From: Geodermatophilus bullaregiensis
Lineage (GTDB): Bacteria > Actinomycetota > Actinomycetes > Mycobacteriales > Geodermatophilaceae
Assembly (NCBI RefSeq): GCF_016907675.1
Contig: NZ_JAFBCJ010000001.1
Coordinates: 496,001 to 560,000, forward strand
DNA: 64,000 nt
Direction: 5' to 3'
Shown: positions 3,698 to 36,080 of the stretch, piece after piece
Position numbering within the stretch: the stretch's first letter is position 1
How the letters are laid out: each line of letters opens with the position of its first letter
Translations under genes and position numbers: made by a program
Notes under the pieces: generated by a model
What the model was told of the DNA's origin: nothing
The model's database searches: none
What the model saw: only the letters and a program-made list of their open reading frames with translations

Positions 3698-5593
3698 GTG
3701 ACACGCACCCCCAGCACCGACCGGTGGGGCATCGACGCCACCTGGCTCGACGCCCTCGACGAGGAACACGAGGTCGCCCAGGCCACGATCGAGCGCCTGC
3801 GGGAGGTGATCGGCGAACCGCCCGAGGACCTCGACTCCCGCGCTCCGATCGTCGCCCGCCCCGGCGACGTCCTGGAGGTCGACGAGGCCGAGGTGACCCT
3901 CGAGGACGGCTCCACCCGGCACGTCGACGGCGAGCTGCCCGAGGACTTCCCGCTGGGTTACCACTGGCTGCAGGTCCCCGACGGCCCGCGGCGCCGGCTG
4001 GTCGTCTCCCCCGGCCGGTGCTGGCTGCCCGAGGACCGCGCCTGGGGCTGGGCGGTGCAGCTCTACGCCACCCGCAGCCGCGACAGCTGGGGCATCGGCG
4101 ACCTCGGCGACCTGCGCGCGGTCCGGGAGATGGCGGCCGGGCAGGGCGCCGGCTTCGTGCTCGTCAACCCGCTGCACGCCGTCGCCCCGACACCGCAGCA
4201 GGAGGCCAGCCCCTACCTGCCGGCCACCCGCCGCTTCCGCAACCCGCTGTACCTGCGCGTATCGGAGGTGCCCGGCGCCGACGCCGTCGACCTGGAGGAG
4301 GACGCCGGCCGGGCGCTGTCGGAGGGCGAGCTGATCGACCGCGACGCCGTCTGGGCCCGCAAGCGCGAAGTGCTGCGCCGGGTCTTCGACGCCACCGGCC
4401 GCGACGACCCCGCCTTCCCCGACTGGTGGTGGTTCCAGGGCCAGAAGCTGCAGGACTGGGCCACCTGGAGCGCCCTGGCCGACGTCCACGGCCCCGACTG
4501 GCACACCTGGCCCGAGGAGCTGCGCGACCCGCGCGGCGACGCCGTCGCCGCCTTCGCCGCCGAGCACGAGCACGACGTCGCCTTCCACGCCTGGCTGCAG
4601 TGGGCGCTGCACCTGCAGCTGGAGCGCGCGACCGAGGGCATGACCGTCATCCAGGACCTGCCGATCGGCGTGGCCGGCGGCGGCGCCGACGCCTGGACCT
4701 GGCAGGGCGTCCTGGCCGACGGTGCCTCGGTGGGCGCACCCCCGGACGCGTTCAACTCGCAGGGGCAGGACTGGGGCTCGCCCCCGCTGGTCCCGTGGCG
4801 GCTGCGCGAGGCCGACTACGAGCCGTTCGTCGAGTCCATCCGCGCCACCATGGCCGGCGCCGGCGGCCTGCGGATCGACCACGTCATGGGCCTGTTCCGG
4901 CTGTGGTGGGTGCCCTCGGGCGAGGGCACCGCCGCCGACGGCGCCTACGTGCGCTACCCGGCCGAGGACCTGCTCGACATCGTCGCGCTGGAGAGCCACC
5001 GGGCGCAGGCGGTCGTCGTCGGCGAGGACCTCGGCACGGTCGAGGACGGCGTCCGCGAGGCCCTCGCCGAGCACGGGATCCTCGGCTACCGGCTGCTGTG
5101 GTTCGAGGACGACGACCCGGCCGAGTGGCCCGCGGAGGCGATGGCCGCGATCAGCACGCACGACCTGCCGACGGTCGCCGGGCTGTGGAGCGGGGCCGAC
5201 GTCGAGGAGCAGCGCGAGTACGGCACCGGCACCGACGAGGAGCTCGAGCGCGGCCGGAGGTCGCTGCTCGAGAAGCTGCCCGGGCTGCGGAGGAACGCGA
5301 AGCCGGAGACGGCGGTCCGGCGGGCGCACGAGCTGCTGGCCCGCGCACCGTCGCTGCTGCTGTCGGCCACCCTGGACGACGCGGTCGCCGAACGGCGCCG
5401 TCCCAACATGCCGGGGACCACCGACCGGCCCAACTGGTCGCTGCCGCTGCCCGTGCGCGTGGAGGACCTGGCCGCGCACCGGCTGCTGCAGGAGGTGGCC
5501 CGGACGCTGGCCGAGGGCGTGGCCGCTACCCGCGACCCGGAGGAGGACGCCATCGGCGAGCAGCCCGGCGGGGAGGCCCGCGAGGGCGCCTGA
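3698..5593 (+). CDS. malQ: 4-alpha-glucanotransferase (amylomaltase)
   Basis: A 631-aa GH77 enzyme that transfers alpha-1,4-glucan segments between maltodextrins or to glucose, in the cytoplasm. An N-terminal region of about 115 residues precedes the catalytic barrel, which opens at WAVQLYATRSRDSWGIGDLG. Catalytic signatures are visible: GGLRIDHVMGLFRLWW (nucleophile Asp), VVVGEDLGTV (acid/base Glu) and ISTHDLPTV (transition-state Asp). The end has the RPNMPGTTDRPNWS motif of the family. It starts at GTG 3698. It diverges from the MerR unit and faces the nucH gene tail to tail. With the GH13 gene at 1-732 it suggests glycogen or maltodextrin turnover. Confidence 0.95.
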   Translation: MTRTPSTDRWGIDATWLDALDEEHEVAQATIERLREVIGEPPEDLDSRAPIVARPGDVLEVDEAEVTLEDGSTRHVDGELPEDFPLGYHWLQVPDGPRRRLVVSPGRCWLPEDRAWGWAVQLYATRSRDSWGIGDLGDLRAVREMAAGQGAGFVLVNPLHAVAPTPQQEASPYLPATRRFRNPLYLRVSEVPGADAVDLEEDAGRALSEGELIDRDAVWARKREVLRRVFDATGRDDPAFPDWWWFQGQKLQDWATWSALADVHGPDWHTWPEELRDPRGDAVAAFAAEHEHDVAFHAWLQWALHLQLERATEGMTVIQDLPIGVAGGGADAWTWQGVLADGASVGAPPDAFNSQGQDWGSPPLVPWRLREADYEPFVESIRATMAGAGGLRIDHVMGLFRLWWVPSGEGTAADGAYVRYPAEDLLDIVALESHRAQAVVVGEDLGTVEDGVREALAEHGILGYRLLWFEDDDPAEWPAEAMAAISTHDLPTVAGLWSGADVEEQREYGTGTDEELERGRRSLLEKLPGLRRNAKPETAVRRAHELLARAPSLLLSATLDDAVAERRRPNMPGTTDRPNWSLPLPVRVEDLAAHRLLQEVARTLAEGVAATRDPEEDAIGEQPGGEAREGA

Positions 5594-5644
5594 GGACGGA
5601 CCCTGCCCCCCGACGCTCGCGAGCGTCGGGGGGCAGGCGTCCTC
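5592..5644. terminator. Bidirectional terminator between malQ and nucH; copy a of the 3' repeat family
   Basis: A perfect 36-base palindrome (two 18-base arms, 5602-5637, apex GCTCG-CGAGC) is extended by outer 7-base arms GAGGACG (5592-5598) and CGTCCTC (5638-5644). The outer arms include bases of the malQ TGA (5591-5593) and the nucH TGA (5645-5643), so this hairpin closes both convergent genes. The malQ side starts GGACGGACCCTGCCCC, the same plan as the other stop-adjacent elements in this window. Confidence 0.8.
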
Positions 5645-8276
5645 AGGACTCCGCGCCCTCCTGGTCCGCGGTGCCCGCGCCGCGGCCCGGGGTCAGGGTG
5701 TCGGTGCCCGGACCGCCGACCAGCGTGTCGTCGCCGGTGCCGCCGTCGAGGGCGTCGGCGCCGAAGCCGCCGAGCAGCGCGTCGGCGCCGTTGTCACCGG
5801 CGAGCGTGTCGTCCCCGGTGCCGCCGCAGAGCACGTCGCCGGCGTTGCCGCCGGTGATCGTGTCGTCCCCGCCCAGGCCCATGACCACGTCGGCACCGGC
5901 GGTGCCGGTGAGGACGTCGTCCCCGGCGGTGCCGCGGATCGTCGGGAGGAGGCCGTCGCAGCGCTCCTGCAGGTCGATCCCGACCAGCAGCGGGTCGTGG
6001 TCGCTGGAGCGGTACGGGTCCGGCGCGTAGAGCCCCTCGTCACCGGTGTACTGGTAGGCGGAGGACTCCACCGAGTTGACGTTCCAGTGCACCGCACCGG
6101 TCACCTTGGCGGTCAGCTCGGCGGTGGCCAGCGCGTGGTCGAGCGATCCGGACAGCGCGTCGAAGACGTAGCTGAACCGCTCCGGGTCCGACACCGATCC
6201 CAGGTCGGTGAGCCCCGCGCGCCGCAGGGTCTCGATCGGGTCCTCCTGCGTGTAGGCGTTGTAGTCGCCGAGCGAGACGACGTCGGGGTCGCGTTCGCGC
6301 AGCTGCCCGATGAACGCGGCCAGCGACTCCGCCTGCCGGACGCGGTCGCCGTTCCAGGCACCCTGCCCGTCCCCGGCGTCCACGTCGTCGCCGGTGGCGC
6401 CGGCCGGGGAGCCCTTCGACTTGAAGTGGTTGGCGACGACGGTGAACAGGTCCCCGTCCTTGCCGAAGGTCTGCGCCTGCGGCTCGCGGGCGTTGTCCCA
6501 GACGTCCTCGTCGACCAGCCCGACCGGGTCGCCGACCGGCTGCACGACGCCGGCCTGGTAGATGATCGCGTTGCGGATCACGTCGCGGTCGACCGCGTAG
6601 AGCTCCTCCGGCATCGGGACGAACGCCCACTTCTCGTACCCGGCGTCCGCGTTCAACCGCCGCACCAGGTCGGCCAGGGCGGCGTCGGCGGTCTCGGCGT
6701 AGCCGGTGGAGGCGGTGTCCTCGATCTCCATCAGCGTGACGACGTCGGCGTCGAGCGCGTCGACGGCCGGGACGATCTTCCCCGCCTGCTGCTCGAGCTC
6801 CGCCGGGCTGGTCGCGCCGCGGGCGCTCGAGCCGCTGAGGGTGAGGAAGTAGTTGAGCACGTTGAACGCGCCGATCCGCACGTCGCCGCCGACCTCGTCG
6901 GGCGCGCCGGGCCGGGTGTCCTGCGGGTCGAACGTGCCCTCCGCGGTGCCGTCGGCCGGCTGCAACCGCCAGGCGCCGAAGCCGTGGCCCAGGACGAGCG
7001 GCTGCCGGAAGGTCAGGACGTCGCCGACGCGGACCGGCGTGGTCGGCGACAGGTACGGCCGGGTGGTGACCGACACCCGCGCGCTGACGCCGTCGTCGAG
7101 CGTGATGCTGCGCCGGGCGTTCTCGGCGGCGATGGCCGCGGCCTCGGGGCCGGGCCGGGCCAGCTCGGTGGGCTGCACGAGGACGCCGCCCTGCGACAGG
7201 GTCAGCTCGCCGAAGCTGGTGAGGTCGAAGACCTCGCTGACGGTGAGGTCGTCGACGGGGTCGACCAGCACGCCCTCGAGCCGCTCGCGGGCGGCGTCGT
7301 CGGCGGGCAGGTCGAGCGGCGCCGGGTCGGGCAGGTCGGCCTCGGTGCCGTCGGCACAGACCACCGCGCTGCCGCCGGCGCCGACCTGCGTCTGCCCCGG
7401 CTGCCCCGGGTCCCCGCCGAACTCCTGGGCCTGGCCGGTCACCACGACCGTGTCGCCGAGGCCGACCGCCACGGGGCTGAAGACGAAGATCCCGTCGGAG
7501 GTGGCCGCGTCGCCGTCGCCGTCGGCGTCCTGCAGGTAGAAGCCCGACAGGCCGGGGACGTCGCCCACCACGACGCCGCGGACGGTGACCTGCTGCCCCG
7601 CCAGCGGTGTCACGGGACCGCTGCCCTGGACCGCGCCGATCTCGTGGGTCGGCGGTGAGTCGCAGGTGGTCGTCGGGGTCGGCGTCGGCGTGGCGGCGGG
7701 GTTGACAGTGCCGCGCGTGGCGGCGGCCGGCCCGGCCCAGACCAGCGCGTCCGCCGCGGCGTCGTGGGTCCGTGACAGCGACTGGGTGGCCGAGGTGCCG
7801 TCGCCCTCGGCCACCCCGATGTCCGTGCTCGGGGTGGAGGCGGCCGGGCCGTTGGTCGCGGTGAAGGTCCCCTCGTAGGAGAGGAACTCCAGGACGCCGT
7901 CCGGGCCGACCAGCGCGAGGCCGTCCGGAGCACCGTTCTGGATGCCGGTCCCCGGACCGCTCACGGTGACCACGGCGGGGGCGTCGGCGGGCGCGGTGAC
8001 CGGGGGCAGCGCGAGCGTGCCGTAGGAGGCTCCGCCGGAGCCGTTGTAGAGGACGACCGAGAGGCCCGCGGAACTCGTGCCGGCCGGGAGCTGGACCTCG
8101 ACGAACTCGTTCGCGTCGGCACCGGCGTTGTCGTAGTGGATCTCGGAGATGAACGGCGTGGCCGGCGGGGCGGCCTGGGCGACCGCGGGGAGGCCGACGA
8201 CGGCGAGGGACGCGGCAGCGGTGCCGAGTGCGGCGCGGCGCGCGAGCACGCACCGGGAGCCGGGGGATGAGCGCAC
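5643..8276 (-). CDS. Secreted ExeM/NucH-type endonuclease with calcium-binding repeats
   Basis: An 877-aa predicted extracellular nuclease. An N-terminal signal peptide (RR pair, then a hydrophobic stretch ending AVAQAAPP) is followed by a lamin-tail-like domain (FISEIHYDNAGADANEFVEV), an OB-like segment (LAGQQVTVRGVVVGD), and an endonuclease/exonuclease/phosphatase domain. The last shows FNVLNYF, MEIEDT, VVANHFKSKGSP, SLGDYNAY and a closing SSDHDPLLV. The final 95 residues are RTX-like nonapeptide repeats such as GGLGDDTITGG and GGTGDDTL, which bind calcium and fold outside the cell. The start GTG 8276 is chosen because AAGGGG lies six bases upstream and it places the signal peptide at the N-terminus; the frame stays open much further upstream. 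It probably scavenges phosphate or nucleotides from extracellular DNA. Confidence 0.88.
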   Translation of the reverse strand: MRSSPGSRCVLARRAALGTAAASLAVVGLPAVAQAAPPATPFISEIHYDNAGADANEFVEVQLPAGTSSAGLSVVLYNGSGGASYGTLALPPVTAPADAPAVVTVSGPGTGIQNGAPDGLALVGPDGVLEFLSYEGTFTATNGPAASTPSTDIGVAEGDGTSATQSLSRTHDAAADALVWAGPAAATRGTVNPAATPTPTPTTTCDSPPTHEIGAVQGSGPVTPLAGQQVTVRGVVVGDVPGLSGFYLQDADGDGDAATSDGIFVFSPVAVGLGDTVVVTGQAQEFGGDPGQPGQTQVGAGGSAVVCADGTEADLPDPAPLDLPADDAARERLEGVLVDPVDDLTVSEVFDLTSFGELTLSQGGVLVQPTELARPGPEAAAIAAENARRSITLDDGVSARVSVTTRPYLSPTTPVRVGDVLTFRQPLVLGHGFGAWRLQPADGTAEGTFDPQDTRPGAPDEVGGDVRIGAFNVLNYFLTLSGSSARGATSPAELEQQAGKIVPAVDALDADVVTLMEIEDTASTGYAETADAALADLVRRLNADAGYEKWAFVPMPEELYAVDRDVIRNAIIYQAGVVQPVGDPVGLVDEDVWDNAREPQAQTFGKDGDLFTVVANHFKSKGSPAGATGDDVDAGDGQGAWNGDRVRQAESLAAFIGQLRERDPDVVSLGDYNAYTQEDPIETLRRAGLTDLGSVSDPERFSYVFDALSGSLDHALATAELTAKVTGAVHWNVNSVESSAYQYTGDEGLYAPDPYRSSDHDPLLVGIDLQERCDGLLPTIRGTAGDDVLTGTAGADVVMGLGGDDTITGGNAGDVLCGGTGDDTLAGDNGADALLGGFGADALDGGTGDDTLVGGPGTDTLTPGRGAGTADQEGAES

Positions 8277-8344
8277 GGAGGACCCCTTCGAGCGGTACCG
8301 GGACGTGAGCCGGGCTGACCGTCCACGGAGCCCTGCCCGGCAAC

Positions 8345-8366
8345 GGGACGTGACGGTCAGGTGACT
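8345..8366 (-). promoter_or_regulatory. Candidate PHO-box-like direct repeat upstream of nucH
   Basis: On the minus strand two adjacent 11-base units, AGTCACCTGAC and CGTCACGTCCC, share GTCAC at an 11-base period, the spacing of Streptomyces PhoP boxes (consensus units near GTTCACC). They lie 69-90 bases upstream of the nuclease start. The match is partial, so this is a weak inference. A small hairpin (CCGAGG-GCA-CCTCGG, 8385-8399) lies beside it. Confidence 0.3.
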
Positions 8367-8495
8367 CCGTGCGCTCAGTGTGACCCGAGGGCACCTCGGC
8401 ACGCCAGGTGGACGAGTCGACACGCGCCGTGACCAGCGCGAACGCCGGGACCGCCGACCCGAACACGTGTTCGACGGTCGTGCCAGACTGCCGGG

Positions 8496-8834
8496 GTGGC
8501 TGGCGGGATGCACCGGGGCAGGTCGCGACCGTCGCTGGGCGAGCGGGCCGCCGGCTCGGGCGTCGGCCCGCCACCGGGGTTCGACGCGCCCCCGGTCGAC
8601 CCCGCTCCCCCGCCGCTCCCGGTCGGCGGCGGGCCCTCCGCGCGGGAGGACCCCGGCCGGCACTGCTGGGTGCACGCCCCGCCCGGCGCGCCCGGCACCG
8701 TGCCGGGCCTCCTGGTGGAGTGGCGGCAGCGCCCCGGCGGCTGGCAGGGGCGGGTGGCCTACGCCGTGCCCGGCCCGCACGGCCCGGTACTGGTCGAGGC
8801 GTGGCTCCCGGCCGGGTCGCTCGAGCAGCGGTGA
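8496..8834 (+). CDS. Conserved hypothetical protein, 112 aa
   Basis: Unrecognised small protein. The N-terminal half is glycine/proline-rich and looks disordered. The second half (HCWVHAPPGAPGTVPGLLVEW, RVAYAVPGPHGPVLVEAWLP) has the alternating pattern of a small beta domain, and from memory similar short proteins occur in related actinobacteria. The start GTG 8496 follows a -10-like CAGACT (8484-8489) by six bases, suggesting a leaderless transcript; ATG 8508 is the alternative. No signal peptide or membrane segment is seen. It is followed 76 bases later by another small gene on the same strand. No function can be assigned. Confidence 0.6.
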   Translation: MAGGMHRGRSRPSLGERAAGSGVGPPPGFDAPPVDPAPPPLPVGGGPSAREDPGRHCWVHAPPGAPGTVPGLLVEWRQRPGGWQGRVAYAVPGPHGPVLVEAWLPAGSLEQR

Positions 8835-8910
8835 GCGGGTTTCCCCCGCGGCGGGGCGGCTATGGCCTCCGGTCGAGACCGATCGACGACGACGCAGCGG
8901 AGGTACCGCG

Positions 8911-9114
8911 ATGACCACCCCACCCGACCGCCCCACCCTCGACGACGTCATGGACACCGAGGAGTCGGCGCCCAGGGACCGCCAGGAGCACGGCAAGACC
9001 GACCCGCGCCCGAACGACGAGGCCCTGCAGCACCGCACCGAGCAGGAGCGCCAGGCGGTCGACTCCGACGACGCCGACCCGGCCGGCGCCGAGTTCCACG
9101 CGGCCACCGACTGA
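8911..9114 (+). CDS. Small acidic hypothetical protein, 67 aa
   Basis: A 67-aa highly charged protein (MTTPPDRPTLDDVMDTEESA at the start, DSDDADPAGAEFHAATD at the end), rich in Asp, Glu and Arg with almost no hydrophobic residues, so probably disordered. The start ATG 8911 has a good ribosome-binding site (GGAGG, about seven bases upstream), the main reason to accept the gene. Its stop is directly followed by copy b of the stop-adjacent repeat family, which in this window always follows real genes. The function is unknown. Confidence 0.65.
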   Translation: MTTPPDRPTLDDVMDTEESAPRDRQEHGKTDPRPNDEALQHRTEQERQAVDSDDADPAGAEFHAATD

Positions 9115-9256
9115 GGAAGGACCCTCCTGCCTCCACGCCTCGCAGGCTCGGCGCGGGCCCCTGCAGGACGGCCGTTCCAGCACCTCACCGGGCTCGGCGC
9201 GGGCCCCTGCAGGAGGGCCGTTCCAGCACCTCACCGGGCTCCGCGCGGGCCCCTGG
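9115..9256 (+). repeat. Stop-adjacent repeat element, copy b, with 46-base tandem duplication
   Basis: Two bases after the stop of the 67-aa gene begins AAGGACCCTCCTGCC, leading through CTCGCAGGCTCG to GGGCCCCTGCAGGACGGCC, the plan shared with copies at 21438, 30117, 33302 and 36018. The part GGCTCGGCGCGGGCCCCTGC and the following bases to CAGCACCTCACCG then repeats as a 46-base unit: 9145-9190, 9191-9236, and a partial third copy from 9237. CCCTCCTGC at the left pairs with GCAGGAGGG at the right (second unit), so a long hairpin can form. Confidence 0.75.
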
Positions 9257-9257
9257 A

Positions 9258-9291
9258 CGGGCGGGCGCCGGCCGGCGCCGGCGCCCGCCCG
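9258..9291 (-). terminator. Terminator hairpin of the MFS transporter gene
   Basis: A perfect 15-base stem (9258-9272 with 9277-9291) and a 4-base loop, starting two bases after the MFS stop codon. It is strongly GC and has no T-run. Together with copy b of the repeat it separates two convergent genes. Confidence 0.7.
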
Positions 9292-9293
9292 CG

Positions 9294-10448
9294 TCAGCGG
9301 CCCGGCAGGCTCCGGCTGCGGCCGAGCAGCAGGGCCAGCACGAGCGCGCCGCCCACCCCGGTCCCGGCCACGGCGACCGCCCCGGGCCACCCGGCGCTCG
9401 CCCAGGCCTCGCCGGCCAGGGTGCCGCCCACCGAGGACCCCGCGTAGTACCAGAACGAGTACAGCGAGGCCGCCTGCCCGACCGCCCGCCCGCCGAGCGC
9501 CGCGCGGGCGGCCACCCAGCCGCTGGCCACGCCGTGCGCGGCGAAGAAGCCGACGGTCAGGACCGCCAGCCCGGCGACGAACAGCGCCAGCGGCGCGGCC
9601 AGCGTGAGCAGCAGGCCGGCCCCGGTCACGACGATCGCGACGGGGACGACGACCCGCCGACCGACGCGCTCGGCCAGCCCCCCGGCCAGCGGCGAGCTCA
9701 CCGAGCCCAGCAGGTAGGTGAGGAACACCAGCCCGGCCAGCGTCGGCGACAACCCGTACGGCTGCGCCTCCAGCCGGAACGTGCCCGCGTTGTAGACCGC
9801 GACGTTGCCGCCCATGAGCAGCGCGGCCAGCCCGTAGAGCCCGAGCAGCACCGGGTCGCCGAACCCGCGGGCGAGCTGCTGCAGCACCGGCGTCCCGCGC
9901 GGCACCGGCACGAAGCGGCGGGACGCCGGCAGCAGCACCCAGACGGCGGCGGTGCAGGCCACCGCCAGGACCGCGATGGCGCCCAGCGCCGTCCGCCAGC
10001 CGCCGAGGTCGGCCAGCGCCCCGGCCACCACCCGGCCGCTCAGGCCGCCGATCGCGGTGCCGCCCACGAACAGCCCGATCGCCCGGGAGCTCACCGAGGC
10101 GTCGAGCTCCTCGCGCAGGTAGGCCACCCCGACGGCGGGCAGCCCGGCCAGCGCGAAGCCCTGCAGGCCGCGCAGCACCAGCAGCGGTTCCCACGCCGGC
10201 ACGAGCGCCAGCAGCACCGCCAGCCCGGTGGCCGTCGCGAGCGCGGTGCGCAGGACGCGGGTGCGGCCGATCCGGTCCGACAGCGGGCCGAGCACGAGGA
10301 GTCCGACCGCCAGCCCCGCCGTCGCCGCCGAGACCGACAGGGTCGCGGCGGCCGGCGAGACGCCGAAGGCGCGGGTCAGCTCGGGCAGCAGGGCCTGCGG
10401 CGCGTAGAGGAGGGCGAAGACGGCGAGCCCGGCGAGGAACACCGCCAC
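9294..10448 (-). CDS. MFS transporter (drug/sugar efflux type)
   Basis: A 384-aa integral membrane protein of the major facilitator superfamily with about 12 hydrophobic segments. The first is VAVFLAGLAVFALLYAPQAL. The loop GPLSDRIGRTRVL is the MFS signature between helices 2 and 3, repeated as GGLAERVGRRVVV in the second half. It resembles the YnfM/YgaY inner-membrane efflux group, but the substrate is unknown. The start is uncertain: the frame has no ATG, GTG or TTG between 10448 and codons well upstream. GTG 10448 would start the protein at helix 1, while CTG 10496, with GGGGGAGGG upstream, would add 16 residues (HGHRAGEPGLRR...) that look like a normal cytoplasmic N-terminus. Confidence 0.85.
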   Translation of the reverse strand: MAVFLAGLAVFALLYAPQALLPELTRAFGVSPAAATLSVSAATAGLAVGLLVLGPLSDRIGRTRVLRTALATATGLAVLLALVPAWEPLLVLRGLQGFALAGLPAVGVAYLREELDASVSSRAIGLFVGGTAIGGLSGRVVAGALADLGGWRTALGAIAVLAVACTAAVWVLLPASRRFVPVPRGTPVLQQLARGFGDPVLLGLYGLAALLMGGNVAVYNAGTFRLEAQPYGLSPTLAGLVFLTYLLGSVSSPLAGGLAERVGRRVVVPVAIVVTGAGLLLTLAAPLALFVAGLAVLTVGFFAAHGVASGWVAARAALGGRAVGQAASLYSFWYYAGSSVGGTLAGEAWASAGWPGAVAVAGTGVGGALVLALLLGRSRSLPGR

Positions 10449-10585
10449 CGACGCGCGGCGCAGGCCCGGCTCCCCGGCGCGGTGACCGTGCGGCAGCCCG
10501 GGCCCTCCCCCGGTCAGCGCCGCGGCCCGGGCGGGACGGGGAGGCGGCGCACGGCCCCATCGTGCCTGCCTGCTGGGATGGGCCG

Positions 10586-11014
10586 GTGCCCCGCCTGCTG
10601 CCCGCCGACGTCGCCTGCTGGGTGGTGAAGACCGCCCGCCCGCCGTCGGCCGTCGTCCCCGGCTGGCGCGCCGGCGAGGAGCACGCGTTCTCCCGCTGCC
10701 TGCGCCGCTCCTACCGGCTGGAGCTGATGGCACCCGGCCAGCCGGTCCTGCTGTGGCTCTCCGGCCGCGACCGCCCGGGCGTGCACGCCGCAGGCGTGGT
10801 GGCCGGGGAGGTCACCGAGGACGCGGGCGGGCCGTCGGTGCACGTCCGGGTGACCCTGCTGCCCGCCCCCGTCCCGCGGGCCGACCTGCTGGCCGACCCG
10901 GTCGCCCGTGACGCCGAGGTGCTGCGGATGCCGGCGGGGAGCAACCCCTCGTACCTGACGCCCGCCCAGTACGCCGCCGTCCTCGCCCACCTCCCCGGGC
11001 GCCGCCAGCGCTGA
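10586..11014 (+). CDS. Conserved hypothetical protein, possible EVE-like fold
   Basis: A 142-aa soluble protein with WVVKTARPPSAVVPGW near the start, then RSYRLELMAPGQPVLLWLSG and GVHAAGVVAGEV. The pattern of a short basic/aromatic N-terminus followed by beta strands with VLLWLSG and a small-residue turn recalls EVE/PUA-like domains that read modified nucleotides, but the resemblance is weak and no function is claimed. The start GTG 10586 is preferred over in-frame GTG 10562 because TGGGAT (10574-10579) sits six bases upstream as a leaderless -10 box. It diverges from the MFS gene, with 137 bases between the two chosen starts. Confidence 0.65.
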   Translation: MPRLLPADVACWVVKTARPPSAVVPGWRAGEEHAFSRCLRRSYRLELMAPGQPVLLWLSGRDRPGVHAAGVVAGEVTEDAGGPSVHVRVTLLPAPVPRADLLADPVARDAEVLRMPAGSNPSYLTPAQYAAVLAHLPGRRQR

Positions 11015-11050
11015 GGCACCACCCGGGGAGACCACGGGGAGGCTGGGACC

Positions 11051-11926
11051 ATGGACCGTGTGCCGATGAGACGGATCGCCGGGGGTGCCCTCGCCTGGCT
11101 GCTGACGCTGCAGTTCTTCGTCGTCGAGACGGTCGTCCAGCTGCGCGCCGGCCTGCCCTACTCCCGCTCGGCCGACGTCGTCAGCGCGCTCGGCGACGCC
11201 ACCTGGCCCGGCTCGGCGCTGATGAACGCCTCCTTCGTCGTGCAGGCCGGTCTCATCGGCGCCGGCGCGGTGGCCCTGCTCCCCGCGCTCCGCGGCAGGG
11301 CGGCGCGCCCGGCGGTGGCGCTGCTGGGGACGGCGGCGCTCGGCGTGCTGCTGGTCGGCGTCTTCCCGCGGCTGACCTCCCCGTCGCTGCACACCGCCGG
11401 CGCCGCCCTGTACCTCGTGGGCGGCGGGCTGGGGCTGATCGCGCTGGCCTACGCCGTCCGGCCGTGGTCGGAGGCGCTGGGCACCACGCTGGCGCTGCTC
11501 GGCCTGTTCGGGACGGCGATGACCGTCTTCTACGGCGCCGGGGTGGTCGGGTTCCTCGGCGAGGGCGGCACCGAGCGGGCCGCGGCCTACGTGCTGCCGG
11601 TCGGGCTGGCGCTGGCCGGGCCGACGCTGTGGCGGTTCACCCGCACCCGCACCCGCCCGACGCCCGACGCCGACCGCCCCTCCCGCCGGGAGCAGAAGGC
11701 GCGGCAGCGGGAGCAGGAGCGCGACGCCCGGGCCCGCGCCGCCGCCGAGCGCGACGACGCCCTCGAGGCCGCCGGCCGCCGGTCCGCGGCGACGCCGGAG
11801 CGCCCCGCCGCGCCGGCCGCGCCGGTGACCCGCACCGCCGCCGACGACCGCGCCGACGACCGCGCCGACGACGACCTCGACCCCGAGGACCCCTGGGCCG
11901 ATCCCCGCCGGCGCCGCGGGCAGTAG
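11051..11926 (+). CDS. DUF998-family membrane protein with charged C-terminal tail
   Basis: A 291-aa protein. The first about 195 residues contain five to six hydrophobic segments (ALAWLLTLQFFVVETVVQL, ALLGTAALGVLLVGVFPRL and others) and match the DUF998 pattern, including the early SADVVSALG stretch and the SLHTAGAALYLVGGGLGL helix. The last about 90 residues are a cytoplasmic, highly charged tail (REQKARQREQERDARARAAAE) with an alternating DDRADDRADDDLD motif; coiled coil followed by disorder is likely. The start ATG 11051 follows the previous gene by 36 bases, so they may be co-transcribed. The role is unknown. Confidence 0.8.
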   Translation: MDRVPMRRIAGGALAWLLTLQFFVVETVVQLRAGLPYSRSADVVSALGDATWPGSALMNASFVVQAGLIGAGAVALLPALRGRAARPAVALLGTAALGVLLVGVFPRLTSPSLHTAGAALYLVGGGLGLIALAYAVRPWSEALGTTLALLGLFGTAMTVFYGAGVVGFLGEGGTERAAAYVLPVGLALAGPTLWRFTRTRTRPTPDADRPSRREQKARQREQERDARARAAAERDDALEAAGRRSAATPERPAAPAAPVTRTAADDRADDRADDDLDPEDPWADPRRRRGQ

Positions 11927-11977
11927 CGCGGTCCGGAACCGGTCGCGGCCGGTCCCCGCCCCGGCCACGATGGGGGC

Positions 11978-13351: not shown

Positions 13352-13439
13352 GTCCCGACCCCAGGTGCCGGGGACGACGGCCGGCCGGCGGTTCCCGGAC
13401 GTGGCAGCCCGGGTGCGGAGAAGGGCAGGGACGCCGCGC

Positions 13440-14189: not shown

Positions 14190-14246
14190 TCCTGCAGTGT
14201 GGCCGGACCGGTCCGCCTCGTTCCACCGGCGCGCCCCTGCGGGGGC

Positions 14247-14267
14247 ATCTCACCTGCGAGATAACGT
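14247..14267 (+). promoter_or_regulatory. Inverted repeat and -10 box before the XRE-MurA gene
   Basis: ATCTC-ACCTGC-GAGAT (14247-14262) is an inverted repeat that abuts TAACGT (14262-14267), a -10 candidate eight bases before GTG 14276. A palindrome on the promoter of a gene whose product starts with an XRE DNA-binding domain suggests autoregulation. It could also affect the divergent SDR promoter. Confidence 0.45.
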
Positions 14268-14275
14268 GGCCTCCC

Positions 14276-20533: not shown

Positions 20534-20545
20534 GGGGGTCCTTCA

Positions 20546-21437: not shown

Positions 21438-21501
21438 GGAACGGCCCTCGCGCAGGGGCCCGCGGCGCGCGGAGCGTGCCGTGGGGGGCGCGAGGGTCCT
21501 T
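21438..21501 (-). repeat. Stop-adjacent repeat element, copy c, between hisE and hisG
   Basis: Read on the minus strand it begins immediately after the hisE TAG with AAGGACCCTCGCGCCCC and ends GGGCCCCTGCGCGAGGGCCG. The outer arms CCCTCGCGC and GCGCGAGGG pair perfectly although their sequence differs from the other copies. The central CTCGCAGGCTCG motif is degenerate here. It sits inside what is otherwise a rib-his operon. Confidence 0.75.
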
Positions 21502-24246: not shown

Positions 24247-24247
24247 C

Positions 24248-25977: not shown

Positions 25978-26023
25978 GTCTGCCGAGTCTAGGTGCGCCG
26001 ATCACCCCTCCCGGCCGGTGGGA

Positions 26024-27244: not shown

Positions 27245-27257
27245 GGCGTCTCCTCGC

Positions 27258-28649: not shown

Positions 28650-29572
28650 GCGCCCAGCCGCTCGTCCGGCGCCGGACGGGCCCCGCGGGCCCAGTCGGCG
28701 GCCGGCAGCACCCGCCTGCCCGCCGGCTGCACCTCGCCGAGCCGGACGGCGCCGCGGCCGGTGCCCACCAGGACGCCGTCGGGGCCCACCGAGAGCGCAC
28801 CGGGTCTCAGGGACGACGACGGCACGGGCTCGACCGGGCCGAGCCGCAGCCGGTCGCCGCGCCACGTCGTCCACGCGCCCGGCGCCGGGGTCACCCCGCG
28901 CACCCGGCGGTCGACGACGTGCGCGGGCAGCGTCCAGTCGACCCGCGCGTCGGCGGTCTCGATCCGCGGCGCCAGGCTGACCCCCTCGGCCGGCTGCGGC
29001 TGCGGCACGAGGCTGCCGTCGGCGATGCCGTCGAGGGTGGCCACCAGCAGCCGGGCGCCGCTGACCGCGAGCCGGCCGAGCAGGTCGCCGGCGGTGTCCC
29101 GCGGGCCGATCGGCTCGGTGACCACGCCGTACACCGGACCGGTGTCCAGCCCCTGCTCGAGCCGGAAGGTGCAGGCGCCGGTGACCTCGTCGCCGGCCAT
29201 GAGCGCGTGCTGCACCGGGGCGGCGCCGCGCCAGGCCGGCAGCAGCGAGAAGTGCAGGTTGACCCACCCGTGCGCGGGCAGGTCGAGCGCGGCGGGCGGC
29301 ACCAGCGCGCCGTAGGCGACTACGGGGGCGCAGTCGACGGCGAGGTCGGCGAGCTGCGCGAGGAACTCCGGTTCGCGCGGCGAGCGGGGCTGCAGCACCG
29401 GCAGGCCGGCGGCGTCGGCACGCTCCGCCACCGGCGAGCGGCTGACCCTGCGGCCGCGGCCGGAGCGGGCGTCGGGGCGGGTGAGGACGGCGACGACCTC
29501 GTGACCGGAGGCCAGCAGCGCCTCCAGCGAGGGGACGGCGGGCTCCGGCGTCCCGGCGAAGAGCAGCCTCAG
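28646..29572 (-). CDS. fmt: Methionyl-tRNA formyltransferase (probable CTG start)
   Basis: A 308-aa enzyme that formylates initiator Met-t[23 protein letters not shown] is the family N-terminus; [33 protein letters not shown] (catalytic Asn/His region) and [11 protein letters not shown] follow. The start is unusual. The family sequence begins right at CTG 29572, which overlaps the def TGA (CTGA) exactly as GTGA and ATGA do at other junctions, with GGAGGTGA ten bases upstream. The nearest in-frame conventional codon, GTG 29620, would add 16 residues encoded within def. A CTG start is therefore inferred, not proven. Followed by rsmB in a GTGA overlap. Confidence 0.93.
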
Positions 29573-30102
29573 TGGGGGCTCACCTCCACGCGCGGGACCC
29601 AGGCGCCCGCGCCGGTCCACTCGGCCTCGGCCAGCACCGCCAGCGCGGCCGCGCGCGCCTCCGGGTCGAGCCGGTCGACGAACAGCACGCCGTCGAGGTG
29701 GTCGACCTCGTGCTGCACCGCGCGGGCCAGCAGGTGCGAGCCCTCCACCCGGACCGGGTCGCCGTGCTGGTTCCAGCCCCTGGCCACGACGTGCAGGTGG
29801 CGGCGGCAGTCGAAGCGGTAGCCGGGGATGGACAGGCAGCCCTCCGGCGCCTCCTCGGTCTCCTCCCCGACCAGGTCGACCTCGGGGTTGACCAGGTGGC
29901 CGACCTCGCCGTCGACGTACCAGGTGAACACGCGCAGTCCCACGCCGATCTGCGGCGCGGCCAGCCCGGCGCCGCCGGCGGCGTGCATGGTCTCGGTCAG
30001 GTCGGCGACCAGCCGGCGCAGCTCGGCGTCGAAGTCGGCGACGGGGGCCGCGGGGGTGCGCAGCACCGGGTCGCCCATCAGCCGGATGGGGGTCACGCTC
30101 AC
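29569..30102 (-). CDS. def: Peptide deformylase
   Basis: A 177-aa iron/zinc hydrolase removing the N-formyl group from nascent proteins. All three family motifs are present: GAGLAAPQ (residues 44-51), EGCLSIPG (87-94, metal Cys 89) and QHEVDHLDG (140-148, metal His 141 and 145 with the catalytic Glu). The start GTG 30102 lies eight bases after CATAAC (30116-30111), a good leaderless -10 box, directly beyond repeat copy d. It is first in def-fmt-rsmB, so formylation and deformylation genes are coupled. Confidence 0.96.
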
Positions 30103-30116
30103 CGGTCGATGTTATG

Positions 30117-30176
30117 CGGCCCTCCTGCAGGGTCCCGCCCCGAGCCTGCGAGCGGCGGAGGGGCGGGAGGGTCCTC
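30117..30176 (-). repeat. Stop-adjacent repeat element, copy d, after priA
   Basis: On the minus strand, immediately after the priA TGA, it runs GAGGACCCTCCCGCCCC, CGCTCGCAGGCTCGGGGCG, GGACCCTGCAGGAGGGCCG. The outer arms CCCTCC and GGAGGG pair, with one mismatch further in; the central CTCGCAGGCTCG motif is intact. It separates priA from the def promoter. Confidence 0.75.
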
Positions 30177-32177
30177 TCAGAGCTCGAGGGGGTCGAGCTG
30201 CACCCGCACGTGCTCGGCGGCCTTCCGGGCGCTGCGCACGCCCTGCACCTCGGCCAGCGCCGTCGCGAGCGCCAGGCCCTCGCCGCGCGGCACCCGCACC
30301 AGGAAGCGCTCCCGCTCGCCCTCCTGGCCGGGCCGCGACGGCTCGGGCACGGGGCCGAGCAGGTCGGCGGCGTCGGGCAGCCGGGCGGCCGCGAGGAACT
30401 CCGCCAGCGCCGCCGGCGACCCCGACAGCGACGCCATCCGGGTCGCCGGGGGGAAGCCCAGCTCGCGGCGGTCGGCCAGCTCCCGCTCGGCCAGCCAGCC
30501 CGGGTCCCAGCGCACCAGCGCCTGGACGACGGGGTGGGCGGCGTCCGCGGCGACGACGACCTGCCCGGCGGGCCGGACGAGGGCGGCCGCGTTCATCCAG
30601 CGCCGCAGGGTCTCCTCCCCCGCCCGCAGGTCCGCGCGGCCCAGCAGCGCCCAGGAGTCGAGCAGCAGCGCCGCGCCGTAGCCCCCCTCGGCCACCGGCT
30701 CGGCGCCGGGCGTGGCGACGACGAGGGACGGCCCACCGGACACCGACGGCAGCACGCCCGAGCCCCGCCCCGAGACCCGGACGGCGGCCCCGGGGAACGC
30801 CCGGCCCAGCTCCTCGGCGGTGCGCGCAGCCCCGACGACGGAGGCCCGCAGCTTCGTCCCGTGGCAGTGCGGGCAGTCGAAGGTGGCCGCCGGGCGGGCG
30901 CACCAGCGGCAGGCGGGCACCCGCGAGCCGCCGGGGCCGGGCGCCGGCGCGATGCCCAGGGGACCCGAGCACACCGCGCACCGGGCCGGCGCGCGGCAGC
31001 GCTCGCACGACAGCCCGGGCGCGTAGCCGGCGCGGGGCACCTGGACCAGCACCGGGGCGCCGTCGGCGAGCGCCTGGCGGGCCACCCGGTGGGCGAGGCT
31101 GGGCAGCCGCGCGGTGCGCGCGGCGGGGTCGCGGGCCAGCTCGTGGTCCTCGCCGAGCGCCTGCACCCGCGGCGCTGCGGCGCGCAGGGTGGCGCGGTCG
31201 GCGGCCAGCTCGTGCGCCCAGCCGCTGGCCACGAGCAGCGCGGCCTCGGCGGTGCGCGCGGTCGCCGCGACGACGGCGGCGCAGGAGGCGAGGTGCGCGC
31301 GGTGCAGGAGCACGTCGCGGGCGTGGGCGTAGGGGGCGCGGGGCTCGGCGTGCAGGTCGTCGCCGTCGTCCCAGATCGCCACCAGGCCGAGGTCGGCGAC
31401 CGGCGCGAACGCCGCCGCCCGGGTGCCGAGCACCACCTTCGCGCTGCCGCGGGCGGCGTCGAGGAAGCGGCGGTAGCGGGCGTCGGGCGCGGCGTCGGCG
31501 CGCAGCACGACGAAGGCCCCCTGCGGCAGCGTGGCGCCGGCCGCGGCCGCCAGCCGGTCGAGGTCGCGGCCGTCGGGGACGACGACCAGCGCGCCGCGCC
31601 CGCCCGACAGCGCCGCCCGGCACAGCTCGGCGAGCCGGGCCGGCCAGTCCTCCCCGGGCAGGGCCGTCCACACCGCGCGGGCCGGCCGGCCCGTGGCGAC
31701 GGCGGCCAGCAGCGAGGTGCCGGCCGGGTAGCGGGCGAAGCCGGCCGGGTCCGGCGGCTCCGGCGGCGGCGGGGGCTCGGCCGGCGGGCGCTTCTCCGCG
31801 GCGGCGCGGCGCGGTGGGAGGGCCAGCCGCAGGACGTCGGTCAGCGTGCCTCCCCACCGCTGCGCGACCGAGCGGGCCAGCGTGGCCACCTCCGGGGTCA
31901 GCACCGGCTCGGAGGAGACGAGCTTGGCCAGCGGCGCCAGCTCCCGGCCGGTGTCGCTGGAGTCGGCCAGCTCGAGCACCACGCCGTCGACCAGCTGCCC
32001 GGCGAAGCGCACCCGCACCCGGCAGCCGGCCCGGACCTCGCCGGCCATGGTGTCGGGGACGGCGTAGTCGAAGGTGCGGTCGAGGTGGGCCAGGGGCACG
32101 TCGACGACGACCCGGGCCACCCGCGGCGCAGGGGCTCCCGCCCGCTCGGGAGCGGGGTCGTCGGGGACGGGCGGCAC
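30177..32177 (-). CDS. priA: PriA-family primosomal protein, helicase motifs degenerate
   Basis: A 666-aa PriA homologue, which in other bacteria restarts stalled replication forks. The N-terminal DNA-binding domain ([40 protein letters not shown]) is clear, and the zinc-binding cysteines are present ([17 protein letters not shown], then CRWC and CPHCHG). The ATPase motifs are not normal: the Walker A GxGKT is replaced by [17 protein letters not shown], and the DEEH box by [20 protein letters not shown]. This matches the putatively helicase-inactive PriA of actinobacteria. The start GTG 32177 lies eight bases after TAGCGT, so the message is leaderless. The stop is followed by repeat copy d. 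Confidence 0.92.
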
Positions 32178-32220
32178 GTCCCGGCACGCTACCGAGGGGC
32201 GGCGACAGGACCGGCGCGGC

Positions 32221-32859
32221 TCAGGCGTCGGTGCCGCGCGGGATGCCCAGGGTGGCCAGCAGGTCCTCGTGGAACTGGATCCAGACCAGGTGCAGCGAGT
32301 CCCGGTCGTGGCCGTCGACCCAGCCGCGCTCGCCGGCACCCACCCGGCGCAGGGCCGCGTCGTAGAGCCCGGCGTAGCCCTCGAAGCGGGCCAGCCGGGC
32401 GGCCAGCTCGGCGCAGAGGGCGGCGAAGGAGCCCTGGACCGAGGTCAGGGTCCGCAGCACCCGCTCGTCCCAGCGCCAGTCGGTGTGGTCGTTGAGGGCC
32501 ATCGGGTCCAGCCGGGTCGGGTGCACCTGCCAGTCGGTGCACGCGGCGCCGAAGCGGCGGTTGAGCGGCCGGAAGCGGGCGTGCACGCCGGCGACCTCGT
32601 CGCGGACGCCGAGCGCGTCCAGCTCGGCGGCGAGCCGGCGCTCACCCTCCCCGCGGCCGGCGTCGCTCAGCGACCAGCCCGTGCCGCCGCCGAAGGAGAG
32701 CCGGCGCACCCAGCCGCGCGCCTCGGCGTCGAGCAGGGCCTCCTCGACGGCGTCGTGGTCGAGCCGGAAGCGGCCGGCGACGCGCGCGGTCGTCGGGAAG
32801 CCCAGCACCCGGACGCCGTGCAGCGCGAGGTCCTCGACCGGGCTCGCGTGCGGCGTCAC
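32221..32859 (-). CDS. Winged-helix-type regulator-like protein, second gene of a regulator pair
   Basis: A 212-aa protein. The first about 75 residues (LALHGVRVLGFPTTARVAGR, LLDAEARGWVRRLSFGGGTG, WSLSDAGR) look like a winged helix of the MarR/PadR kind. The rest is a helical region with conserved tryptophans (ALNDHTDWRWDERVL, DRDSLHLVWIQFHEDLLATL). No enzyme motif is seen. The start GTG 32859 overlaps the preceding gene by four bases (GTGA), so the two proteins are made together and probably interact. The exact family is not recognised; similar proteins are often just annotated as transcriptional regulators in actinobacteria. Confidence 0.7.
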   Translation of the reverse strand: MTPHASPVEDLALHGVRVLGFPTTARVAGRFRLDHDAVEEALLDAEARGWVRRLSFGGGTGWSLSDAGRGEGERRLAAELDALGVRDEVAGVHARFRPLNRRFGAACTDWQVHPTRLDPMALNDHTDWRWDERVLRTLTSVQGSFAALCAELAARLARFEGYAGLYDAALRRVGAGERGWVDGHDRDSLHLVWIQFHEDLLATLGIPRGTDA

Positions 32860-33236
32860 GAGCGCTCCCCGACGCGGCCGCTCACCCGGTCGAGGCGCTG
32901 CTGCGCGGCCTGCGGGGAGGCCAGCCCGAGGGCGGCGGAGATGCGCGGCCAGGACAGGCCGGCGGCGCGCGCGGTGAGCAGGAGCCCCGCCTCGAGCTGG
33001 TCGGCCTCGGCGCGGACGGCGGGCAGCAGCGCGAGGGCGGCCAGCAGCACGTCGTGGTCGGCGCCCTCTCCCCCGGCCCGCCACAGGGCGAACCGGACGA
33101 GGTCGGCCGCCGACGGCGGCTGGGTGCCGTGCAGCCACGGCGGCCGGGGCAGGTCGGCCGCACCCGCCCCGAGGAGGAGGGCACGGGCACCCGCCTCGCG
33201 TGCCGCGCGGGCCTGGTCGTCGTCGGCGGGGGCCAC
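32856..33236 (-). CDS. Small HTH-like protein, first gene of a regulator pair
   Basis: A 126-aa mostly helical protein. Near the C-terminus, AGLSWPRISAALGLASPQAA followed by QQRLDRV reads as a helix-turn-helix recognition segment. The N-terminal half (LVRFALWRAGGEGADHDVLL) may bind a partner. The start GTG 33236 is fixed by a consensus promoter, TTGACA, 17 bases, CAGCCT, then seven bases to the GTG, so the message is leaderless. A double palindrome overlaps the -35 and spacer, suggesting autoregulation. It overlaps the next gene (GTGA). The function is not known. Confidence 0.7.
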   Translation of the reverse strand: MAPADDDQARAAREAGARALLLGAGAADLPRPPWLHGTQPPSAADLVRFALWRAGGEGADHDVLLAALALLPAVRAEADQLEAGLLLTARAAGLSWPRISAALGLASPQAAQQRLDRVSGRVGERS

Positions 33237-33243
33237 GACGACC

Positions 33244-33284
33244 AGGCTGGGACCTCAACGAGTCGTTGTCAACGACCCGTTGAG
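33244..33284 (-). promoter_or_regulatory. Consensus promoter with double AACGANTCGTT operator
   Basis: On the minus strand, TTGACA (33272-33267), a 17-base spacer and CAGCCT (33249-33244) form one of the best sigma-A-like promoters in the window. On it lies a 14-base-arm inverted repeat with a 3-base centre (33254-33267 and 33271-33284, one mismatch). Each half is itself a palindrome: CAACGAGTCGTTG (33256-33268) and AACGACCCGTT (33271-33281), centred 14 bases apart. This fits binding of two dimers that would block RNA polymerase. Confidence 0.75.
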
Positions 33285-33301
33285 GTTGAGTGGCGCACGC
33301 C

Positions 33302-33361
33302 GGCGGCCCCACTGCAGGGTCCCGCCGCGAGCCTGCGAGTGGCGGGGGGCAGTGGGGTCCT
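33302..33361 (-). repeat. Stop-adjacent repeat element, copy e, after metK
   Basis: On the minus strand, directly after the metK TGA, it runs AGGACCCCACTGCCCCCCG, CCACTCGCAGGCTCGCGGCG, GGACCCTGCAGTGGGGCCG. The outer arms CCCCACTGC and GCAGTGGGG pair perfectly and differ together from copy d. The central CTCGCAGGCTCG is intact. It separates metK from the regulator-pair promoter. Confidence 0.8.
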
Positions 33362-34558
<1,197 letters not shown>

Positions 34559-34639
34559 TCGGTTCTCCCTGCTTCGGTGACGGGGTCCCTCGGGGAACGA
34601 GGTCGCGGCCGGGTTCGCCCCGGCCACCCGGTGACGTTA
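34559..34639 (-). promoter_or_regulatory. metK promoter and structured leader
   Basis: TAACGT (34639-34634, minus strand) is a -10 candidate about 75 bases before the metK start. The leader contains two perfect small hairpins, GGCCGGG/CCCGGCC (34607-34625) and CCTCG/CGAGG (34588-34602), then the ribosome-binding site. I found none of the conserved cores of the SAM riboswitch classes I know, so control by structure is only a possibility. The remaining bases to coaBC (34640-34705) show no further feature. Confidence 0.4.
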
Positions 34640-34705
34640 CCGGCGTGGCCCGGCGGGCGGCAGCGCGCGGGGGTCGAGGAGGCGGTGGTCGGGGCGGGCG
34701 GCGGC

Positions 34706-35920
34706 TCAGGGCAGCCGCGGCAGGACGGTCGCCCACACGGCCGCGGCCACGGCGTCCTTGCTGCTGCGCGGGACCTCGGTGGCGCTGCCGTCGGCGGCGA
34801 GCACGACCGCGGCGTTGTCGGGCCGGCCGAACACGCCGCCGCCGGAGACGTCGTTGACCACGAGCAGGTCGCAGCCCTTGCGGGCGAGCTTGGCGCGGGC
34901 GTGGGCGAGCACGTCGCCGGCCTCGTCGCCGGTCTCGGCGGCGAACCCGACCACCAGCTGCCCGGGCGTGCGCTTGGTGACCAGCTCGGCGAGCACGTCG
35001 GGGTTGCGCACCAGCGGCACGTCGGGGACCTCGGAGGGGTCGTCCTTCTTCTTCAGCTTGGTGGCCGCGACCGTGGCCGGCCGGAAGTCGGCGACCGCGG
35101 CGGTCATGACGACGACGTCGGCGTCCGGGGCCTCGGCCAGCACCGCGGTCCGCAGCTCCTCCGCCGTCCCCACGGGCACGACGCGCACGCCGAAGGGGGC
35201 CGGCGCGTCGACGTTGGCGGCGACCAGCACGACCTCGGCACCGCGGGCGGCGGCGACCCGGGCCAGCGCCCAGCCCTGCCGGCCCGACGAGCGGTTGCCC
35301 AGGTAGCGCACCGGGTCCAGCGGCTCGCGGGTGCCGCCGGCGCTGACGACCACGCGGCGGCCGGCGAGGTCGGCGCGCAGCACGCCGGCGCCCGCGGTGA
35401 GCACGACCTGCGCCAGCGCGGCGACGTCGGCGGGCTCGGGCAGCCGGCCCGGGCCGGAATCGGGGCCGGTCAGCCGGCCGACCGCGGGCGGCAGCACGAT
35501 CGACCCGCGGCGGCGCAGCGTGGCGACGTTGTCCTGGGTGGCCGGGTGCAGCCACATCTCGGTGTGCATGGCGGGGACGAACACGACCGGGCAGTGCGCG
35601 GTCAGCAGCGTGGCGGTGAGCAGGTCGTCGGCGCGGCCGGCGGCGGCGCGGGCGAGCAGGTCCGCGGTGGCGGGTGCGACCACGACGAGGTCGGCGGTCT
35701 GCCCGATCCGGACGTGGGCGACCTCGGGGACGTGCGACCACACGTCGGTGGTGACGGGGTTGCCCGACAGCGCCTCGAAGGTGGCCGCGCCGACGAAGTG
35801 CAGCGCCGACTCGGTCGGCACGACCCGCACCTCGTGGCCCGCCTCGGTCAGCGCCCGCAGCAGCAGCGCCGCCTTGTACGCGGCCACGCCGCCGCCCACG
35901 CCCAGCACGATCCGGCTCAT
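34706..35920 (-). CDS. coaBC: Phosphopantothenoylcysteine decarboxylase/synthetase
   Basis: A 404-aa bifunctional enzyme for two steps of coenzyme A synthesis. The N-terminal CoaC flavoprotein has RIVLGVGGGVAAYKAA, VVVAPATADLLARAAAGRAD and VPAMHTEMW (active-site Met/His region). The C-terminal CoaB begins about residue 190 with VVVSAGGTREPLDPVRYLGN and has VVMTAAVADFRP, the ATKLKKKDD lysine motif and LLVVNDVSG. The start ATG 35920 has GGGAGG nine bases upstream. It is preceded by a terminator hairpin and repeat copy f, so it probably has its own promoter near 35930-35943. It lies upstream of metK. Confidence 0.97.
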   Translation of the reverse strand: MSRIVLGVGGGVAAYKAALLLRALTEAGHEVRVVPTESALHFVGAATFEALSGNPVTTDVWSHVPEVAHVRIGQTADLVVVAPATADLLARAAAGRADDLLTATLLTAHCPVVFVPAMHTEMWLHPATQDNVATLRRRGSIVLPPAVGRLTGPDSGPGRLPEPADVAALAQVVLTAGAGVLRADLAGRRVVVSAGGTREPLDPVRYLGNRSSGRQGWALARVAAARGAEVVLVAANVDAPAPFGVRVVPVGTAEELRTAVLAEAPDADVVVMTAAVADFRPATVAATKLKKKDDPSEVPDVPLVRNPDVLAELVTKRTPGQLVVGFAAETGDEAGDVLAHARAKLARKGCDLLVVNDVSGGGVFGRPDNAAVVLAADGSATEVPRSSKDAVAAAVWATVLPRLP

Positions 35921-35943
35921 GCGAACGATCCTCCCGCACACAC

Positions 35944-35977
35944 GACGACGCCCCTGGCACAGGCCAGGGGCGTCGTC
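35944..35977. terminator. Perfect 14-base-pair hairpin between rpoZ and coaBC
   Basis: GACGACGCCCCTGG (35944-35957) pairs perfectly with 35964-35977 around a six-base loop. It lies downstream of rpoZ and repeat copy f and upstream of coaBC, so it most likely ends the mihF-gmk-rpoZ transcript. Confidence 0.65.
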
Positions 35978-36017
35978 ACTCGCAAGGGACCGGAACGCCA
36001 GGTGTGACGCCACCAGC

Positions 36018-36080
36018 CGCGGCCCCGGTCCAGAGGCTCGCCCCGAGCTCGCGAGGGGTGAGGGGGACCGGGGTCCTTGC
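36018..36080 (-). repeat. Stop-adjacent repeat element, copy f, after rpoZ
   Basis: On the minus strand, just after the rpoZ TGA, it reads GCAAGGACCCCGGTCCCCC, CCCCTCGCGAGCTCGGGGCG, then GGACCGGGGCCGCG at the far end. The outer arms CCCCGGTCC and GGACCGGGG pair perfectly and differ from all other copies. The centre is CTCGCGAGCTCG, a close variant of CTCGCAGGCTCG. Confidence 0.75.

Follow-up and report, generated by a model that had tools for sequence, protein, structure and literature searches.

A palindromic repeat that adjoins stop codons in Geodermatophilus bullaregiensis, probably a REP-like mobile element of the Geodermatophilaceae

Short palindromic sequences lie directly behind the stop codons of several genes in the window, the 64,000-nt stretch of DNA analysed here (G000:C1:496001-560000; G+C 76%), which is part of a single-contig genome of 5.2 Mb. 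Do these sequences serve the genes that they follow, as terminators or as other 3'-end signals, or are they copies of a repeat that moves? The initial annotation had listed six such stretches as one family. All six were found where it had placed them, and five were recognised as one family by a covariance model (54.9-84.7 bits), whereas the hairpin behind malQ failed that model. The gene names malQ, hisE, hisG, priA, def, metK and rpoZ are those of the initial annotation or were assigned from the translations, and are putative.

Elements in the window and their fold

The covariance model was built from 35 clean copies of this genome and of relatives, picked for a length of 59 nt and an exact loop, and the window was scanned with filters off. 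The copy at 9117..9174 on the plus strand starts 2 nt past the TGA of a gene ending at 9114 (69.2 bits, E 2.2e-12). It is followed at 9176..9214, on the same strand, by a weak match (16.8 bits, E 0.31) that is likely a partial tandem repeat of the preceding copy's 3' half; the repeat is visible in the sequence of locus L002. The remaining copies are on the minus strand. The one at 21442..21501 lies directly past the TAG of hisE (gap 0) and ahead of hisG (54.9 bits), and the one at 30117..30176 directly past the TGA of priA (gap 0; 64.7 bits), where it precedes a -10-like TAACAT and then the GTG start of def. At 33304..33362 the TGA of metK takes its A from the first base of the element (gap -1; 84.7 bits), and the copy at 36020..36078 begins 2 nt past the TGA of rpoZ (gap 2; 71.2 bits). 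Two bases past the hisG stop and before the next GTG stands AAGGACCCCC (20534..20543, minus strand), possibly what a deletion left of a copy, or else no more than a ribosome-binding site; full copies were present at the hisG stop in the relatives G064 and G042. Rfam 15 gave 0 matches in the window at the gathering score.

The malQ hairpin (5592..5644) occupies precisely the gap between malQ and a convergent minus-strand gene, from stop to stop. It is near-perfect, with a fold of -57.3 kcal/mol (z -8.7 vs shuffles) that is much stronger than those of the five copies, and it is a non-member by the model (E 0.024 for the minus strand and 0.41 for the plus). Each of its arms is similar to the family's 5' arm, which would fit a copying of one arm onto the other. 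Similar symmetric hairpins occupy the site in G063 and G044. Because the syntenic relative G042 has a true family copy at the same stop (+5590), which shares GACGCTCGCGAGC with the hairpin of the window, the latter possibly derives from a family copy as a symmetrised derivative.

Read along the upstream gene, the element is an imperfect palindrome of about 59 nt that starts with AAGGACC and ends with GGCCG. It consists of an outer stem from which an A bulges, an interior loop that is asymmetric, an inner stem in which an A faces a C, and a 12-nt loop, CTCGCAGGCTCG. When the five window copies were folded singly, z-scores against shuffles ranged from -4.4 to +0.3; since single copies were not uniformly better folded than shuffled sequences, covariation is the evidence for the stem. 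In the 35 rows of the model, from this genome and from relatives, 96.6% of the cells were paired, and 64 had changed on both sides; shuffling gave 11.5 such cells and sliding 3 to 8. In 115 distinct rows from this genome, an alignment that was fitted to the covariance model and leans towards it, 95.6% of the cells were paired (97.1% in the outer helix), and 197 double-change cells were counted; the slid controls gave 8 to 39 and the shuffled ones 40.8 +/- 5.0, and in both comparisons shuffling leaves the relatedness among copies in place. The earlier observation that the outer arms vary between copies and yet pair within each thus stood, with compensatory changes far above shuffles. The loop and most of the stem letters are nearly fixed. 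In the outer stem about six pairs are conserved mainly as pairs; most of the changes fell in these six and in the uppermost part of the inner stem. One part of the element therefore seems to be recognised by its letters and another by its pairing alone. On the 3' side, 21/112 copies of this genome run on into GTTCCA (often GTTCCAGCACGTCACC; e.g. L006, L021 and L149), which suggests a subfamily with a longer unit.

Copy number, placement beside stop codons and taxonomic spread

A covariance-model search of the genome and its relatives, the check that the initial annotation had proposed, returned many further copies. With 150 of 16190 candidates scored, the genome had at least 149 model matches, 141 of full length and 8 partial units; two of the five window copies were absent from the matches listed. 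The exact loop 12-mer occurred 55 times genome-wide vs 3 times for its reversed control. Inside the window, the 12-mer with up to two mismatches gave 13 matches, which is rarer than in shuffles (mean 32.9). Twenty evenly spaced 20-kb stretches contained 8 copies at E 1e-5, which alone extrapolate to about 100 per genome, under the lower bound of at least 149; together with the five window copies there were 13 in 444 kb, or about 150 per genome, the window having been picked for having copies.

Placement was determined for 112 copies of this genome, a non-random sample from exact-loop loci, the surroundings of strong model matches and five sampled stretches, which remained from 119 matches after removal of partial tandem units, short ends and duplicates. 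Equivalent trimming reduced the 196 matches from relatives to 155. A home-made codon score, with 15 ORFs of the window as its training set, served to call gene ends, and some ends were visibly misclassified. The caller returned zero gene ends in the 20-kb stretch L113 (G000:C1:20001-40000), by unusual composition or by a fault of the caller.

Most of the 112 full-length copies lay beside stop codons: in 85 the distance from an in-frame stop to the start of the copy was -2 to +3 nt, with 46 exactly at +2 (TGA or TAG), 0 were at +4 to +10, and 27 lay elsewhere. Among the relatives' copies, 80/155 had gaps of -2 to +3, and nested copies were frequent among the remainder. A start 0-4 bases past the stop, always in the orientation of the gene, had been described before. 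The adjacency itself was confirmed, but the gaps reach -2 and 27/112 copies lie elsewhere; the orientation was mostly that of the gene, the exceptions being five inverted copies at rpoZ in relatives and one copy of this genome that touches a stop solely by its other end. Both ends abutted convergent stops in 11 copies, of which 8 were from this genome. Copies that were not placed at a gene stop still had a stop triplet at -2 to +3 in 32/102 cases vs 8.3 expected, a figure that includes a few missed gene ends, and 18 were directly adjacent. TAG stood directly ahead of the element in 9/165 stop-adjacent copies. C preceded the TGA in 45/45 gap-2 copies of this genome, compared with 169/206 other non-overlapping TGA ends. 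CTGA as a strict target (97/100 vs 188/307 initially) was dropped, as the difference shrank to a weak hint once overlapping gene pairs left the background. Replication-strand bias was likewise set aside: the copies follow the gene strand, with no clear additional signal.

Within the Geodermatophilaceae, 101/112 genomes had matches at E 1e-6, from 0 to at least 49 each. G001 and G029, members of otherwise rich genera, had none at this threshold, and for G001 no model match was found among the 150 candidates scored. Only 2 to 5 weak matches of 43-67 bits were obtained in G007, G017 and G075 (150 candidates scored per genome); such genomes suggest that the repeat is dispensable. At order level 76/397 genomes matched, and the three among these that belong to other families had 1-2 matches each. 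The copies of G164 and G173 lie near contig ends and the assembly of G248 consists of 240 contigs; contamination is possible behind these copies. Exact pattern matches elsewhere were mostly in Geodermatophilus, Modestobacter, Blastococcus and Goekera, with one in Arthrobacter and one in Isoptericola. Arthrobacter sp. HY1533 (L054, ~5988-6162, minus strand) has three tandem relatives of the element directly past a TAG, with one model match; the two lookalikes in Isoptericola (L099) gave no model match. At phylum level the pattern was present in 3/396 genomes, our own included, and by eye those in G448 and G540 were unlike the family. The 19-base pattern occurred in 4 viral contigs, with no model match at E 0.01, and plasmids gave no match. 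Our literature search, of partial coverage, found no description of such a repeat in Geodermatophilaceae.

No gene that could move the element was found, either by the Y1 domain in this genome and the family or beside the copies of this genome. PF01797 (Y1_Tnp, the RAYT domain) had matches in 0/112 family genomes and likewise none in our own, with control matches in 5/14 named genomes, and RAYT was therefore rejected as the mover. When 182 ORFs flanking the copies of this genome were clustered, no cluster lay beside more than three copies. Those that reached three were a protein that, from its letters, we take to be alpha-amylase-like, a DUF222-HNH protein, and two clusters from one locus counted thrice. 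The DUF222-HNH proteins were rejected as cognate gene: in three paralogues (L163:2556-2615, L168:5511-5569, L169:1501-1559) an inverted copy substitutes for 65 bp of HNH coding sequence that is intact in the paralogue of L271, and the two halves of the gene are in different frames. These genes therefore look like victims.

Filled and empty sites, and the readings they bear on

The ends of rpoZ, metK and priA were compared across 40 relatives. The last residues of RpoZ are nearly identical throughout. By eye, the rpoZ stop was filled in 24/25 same-genus genomes (our own included; one further same-genus genome is outside this count), with 19 copies forward and 5 inverted, and G045 was without a copy; in 16 other family genomes, also by eye, 5 were filled, 10 had no copy and G021 had an apparent remnant. 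The priA-def gap was filled in G000, G064 and G048 and, by a shorter copy, in G044; no copy was present, with a shared flank, in G041, G042, G046, G001, G017 and G007. In the copy-free gaps the flank of def with its -10-like TACGAT starts a few to some tens of bases past the stop, and in the filled gaps this flank comes after the element.

A comparison of 59 window gene ends with five syntenic relatives, in which 17 passed a loose filter, several of them by chance, gave clear filled/empty differences at +9111, +15847, -30636, -42496, -43452, -27917 and -33821, and in G042 also at the malQ stop. The stop at +15847 is empty in our genome and in G063, G044 and G045, and is filled in G064 and G042 by copies whose arms differ. 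The hisE copy is, by its sequence, apparently common to our genome, G044 and G045, the last with one compensated change from a T-A to a C-G pair; G063 and G064 carry other copies at this stop, and in G042 there are only 30 bases, without a copy, from the hisE stop to the hisG start. Since syntenic stops are filled or empty in sister species, with different arms or in either orientation, the copies look inserted rather than ancestral to their sites. No target-site duplication was visible in the filled/empty pairs, whose flanks are too diverged for exact ends.

Several copies (L001, L092, L096 and others) are nested inside older ones, and tandem copies occur as well. In the tandem arrays L049, L036, L134 and L063 the arms are identical within an array, and these arrays may be among the 'questionable CRISPRs' described for the family in PMC9686282.

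We concluded, with a probability of roughly two thirds, that the copies are those of a non-autonomous, REP-like mobile palindrome of Geodermatophilaceae; their movement itself we infer. An enzyme or a replication process would recognise the hairpin through its fixed positions and join its 5' end beside a TGA or TAG. Copies that landed in coding sequence would be lost, and the survivors would occupy the short harmless strip between stop and terminator. The stop would usually be the sole such triplet in this strip and so would also set the orientation of the copy, while the zone conserved only as pairs would drift by compensatory change or by copying of an arm. The mover need not be present in the genome today. 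Several findings count against the mobile palindrome, among them the lack of a mover gene in the searches of this genome and the family. Neither a target duplication nor a constant target was found, and C before TGA is near background. The gaps of -2 to +3 spread more widely than one fixed cut would give, and 27/112 copies lie away from stops; in the HNH genes, sequence was replaced and not simply interrupted. The strongest point against a purely neutral repeat is the near-constant occupancy at rpoZ: as 24/25 is far above the genome average, a random mobile repeat alone would not give this pattern, and a local benefit or a hot spot at the rpoZ stop is possible. A narrower proposal is that the mobile hairpin has insertion machinery of its own, by which stop codons are located and its 5' end is joined within a few nt of TGA or TAG behind unrelated genes, family-wide and without a REP-type transposase, with a zone of six base pairs free to vary if paired; it is put forward as a tentative and rather doubtful one.

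The initial annotation had favoured a lineage-specific terminator or processing hairpin, spread as a repeat and, on this reading, retained because it ends transcripts beside the stop. A conserved hairpin on the sense strand behind genes, with its pairing maintained, agrees with this, as do the 8 copies of our genome that are nearly the sole noncoding DNA between convergent stops. Close convergent genes followed 22/85 copies, compared with 51/333 background and 36/188 CTGA ends, and such a lean towards convergent ends would also be predicted by a bidirectional hairpin role. Other observations speak against it. By eye, relatives have a hairpin of the same type further downstream of rpoZ, whether a copy is present or not. 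Of 31 copies of this genome with noncoding DNA behind them, 18 had a strong hairpin in a window starting no more than 66 nt from the element, whereas 33/139 ordinary noncoding-followed gene ends had their strongest folding window in the corresponding range; read by eye, about half of the 31 were followed by an unrelated hairpin, a similar number by a tandem family copy, and some by both. At element-free ends the extra folding lay in 40-nt windows starting 6 to 24 nt past the stop. Close codirectional genes followed 32/85 copies vs 148/333 background and 57/188 CTGA ends, so that operon-like gaps are not clearly avoided, and one copy sits in the hisE-hisG gap, which is only 30 bases long in one sister species. 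The absence of a U-tract, noted earlier, held: the 3' flank has no T-run, and its T share rose above the rest only at bases one and two (0.32) and at one later base (0.29), from the GTTCC..GTCAC extension. Stops are filled or empty between sister species, and G001, of a genus rich in copies, had no match. The terminator claim was not supported; a general terminator role is unlikely, and the full reading, with processing included, we consider improbable.

The element may, however, have a function at the 3' end of the mRNA or in translation. The stem would then act, within few nt of the stop, on translation termination or on the mRNA stability of the upstream gene. This would suit the unusually tight spacing and the repeated occupancy of the rpoZ stop, and work cited in PMC12306157 found that REPs less than 16 nt from a stop reduce translation, an effect reported for E. 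coli REPs within 15 nt of a stop. Such an effect may be a by-product of insertion; occupancy varies between sister species, G001 lives without a match, and the copies in HNH genes and the inverted and nested ones do not have this geometry. As the explanation of the family it is improbable. A third alternative, compatible with a mobile repeat, concerns only the arms: their covariation would come mainly from template switching, one arm being copied onto the other in replication, and not from selection on the fold. The malQ hairpin, with two arms like the family 5' arm at a stop where G042 has a true copy, fits this, and so do the arms common to tandem copies. The A opposite C in the inner stem, kept in 30/35 rows (a partial test, with rows chosen for length and loop), and one compensated change in the apparently shared hisE copy argue against it. 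We regard template switching as the main source of covariation as unlikely.

Comparison with known systems

Integron attC sites, likewise, are hairpins that lie close to stop codons and vary in their arms; unlike attC sites in cassette arrays, the copies of the element are scattered among core genes. With MITEs it shares a short, non-coding nature and the presence of filled and empty sites, but no target duplication was seen (the flanks being diverged), and it is an asymmetric palindrome instead of a pair of terminal inverted repeats around filler. Like an intrinsic terminator it is a G+C-rich hairpin behind genes; it differs from one by having no T-run, by lying closer to the stop, by its conserved loop sequence and by the other hairpins downstream.

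The closest likeness is to REP sequences, partners of RAYT tyrosine transposases: these imperfect palindromes are short, numerous and extragenic, with some inside genes, have one conserved end, and often adjoin or overlap stop codons. The element, too, has many palindromic copies outside genes, and three inside HNH genes. It is longer (59 nt vs 20-40 bp), has a long, nearly fixed 12-nt loop, carries the 5' end AAGGACC in its consensus instead of a GTAG or CGTC tag, and was not accompanied by a Y1_Tnp match in the 112 family genomes. Length, tag and transposase set it outside the RAYT-linked REPs. According to PMC3733652, the ends of GTAG REPs often supply the TAG stop codon. Proximity to stops is sharper here, with 85/112 copies at -2 to +3 nt compared with 446/4,072 E. 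coli REPs within 15 nt (PMC12306157). The element may account for some of the repeats that crowd Geodermatophilaceae genomes, and its filled and empty sister sites are a natural experiment on what a strong hairpin behind a stop does to translation termination, mRNA decay and read-through. REPs are commonly tied to RAYT; a family-wide repeat with a sharper stop preference and no detectable RAYT calls for another mover.
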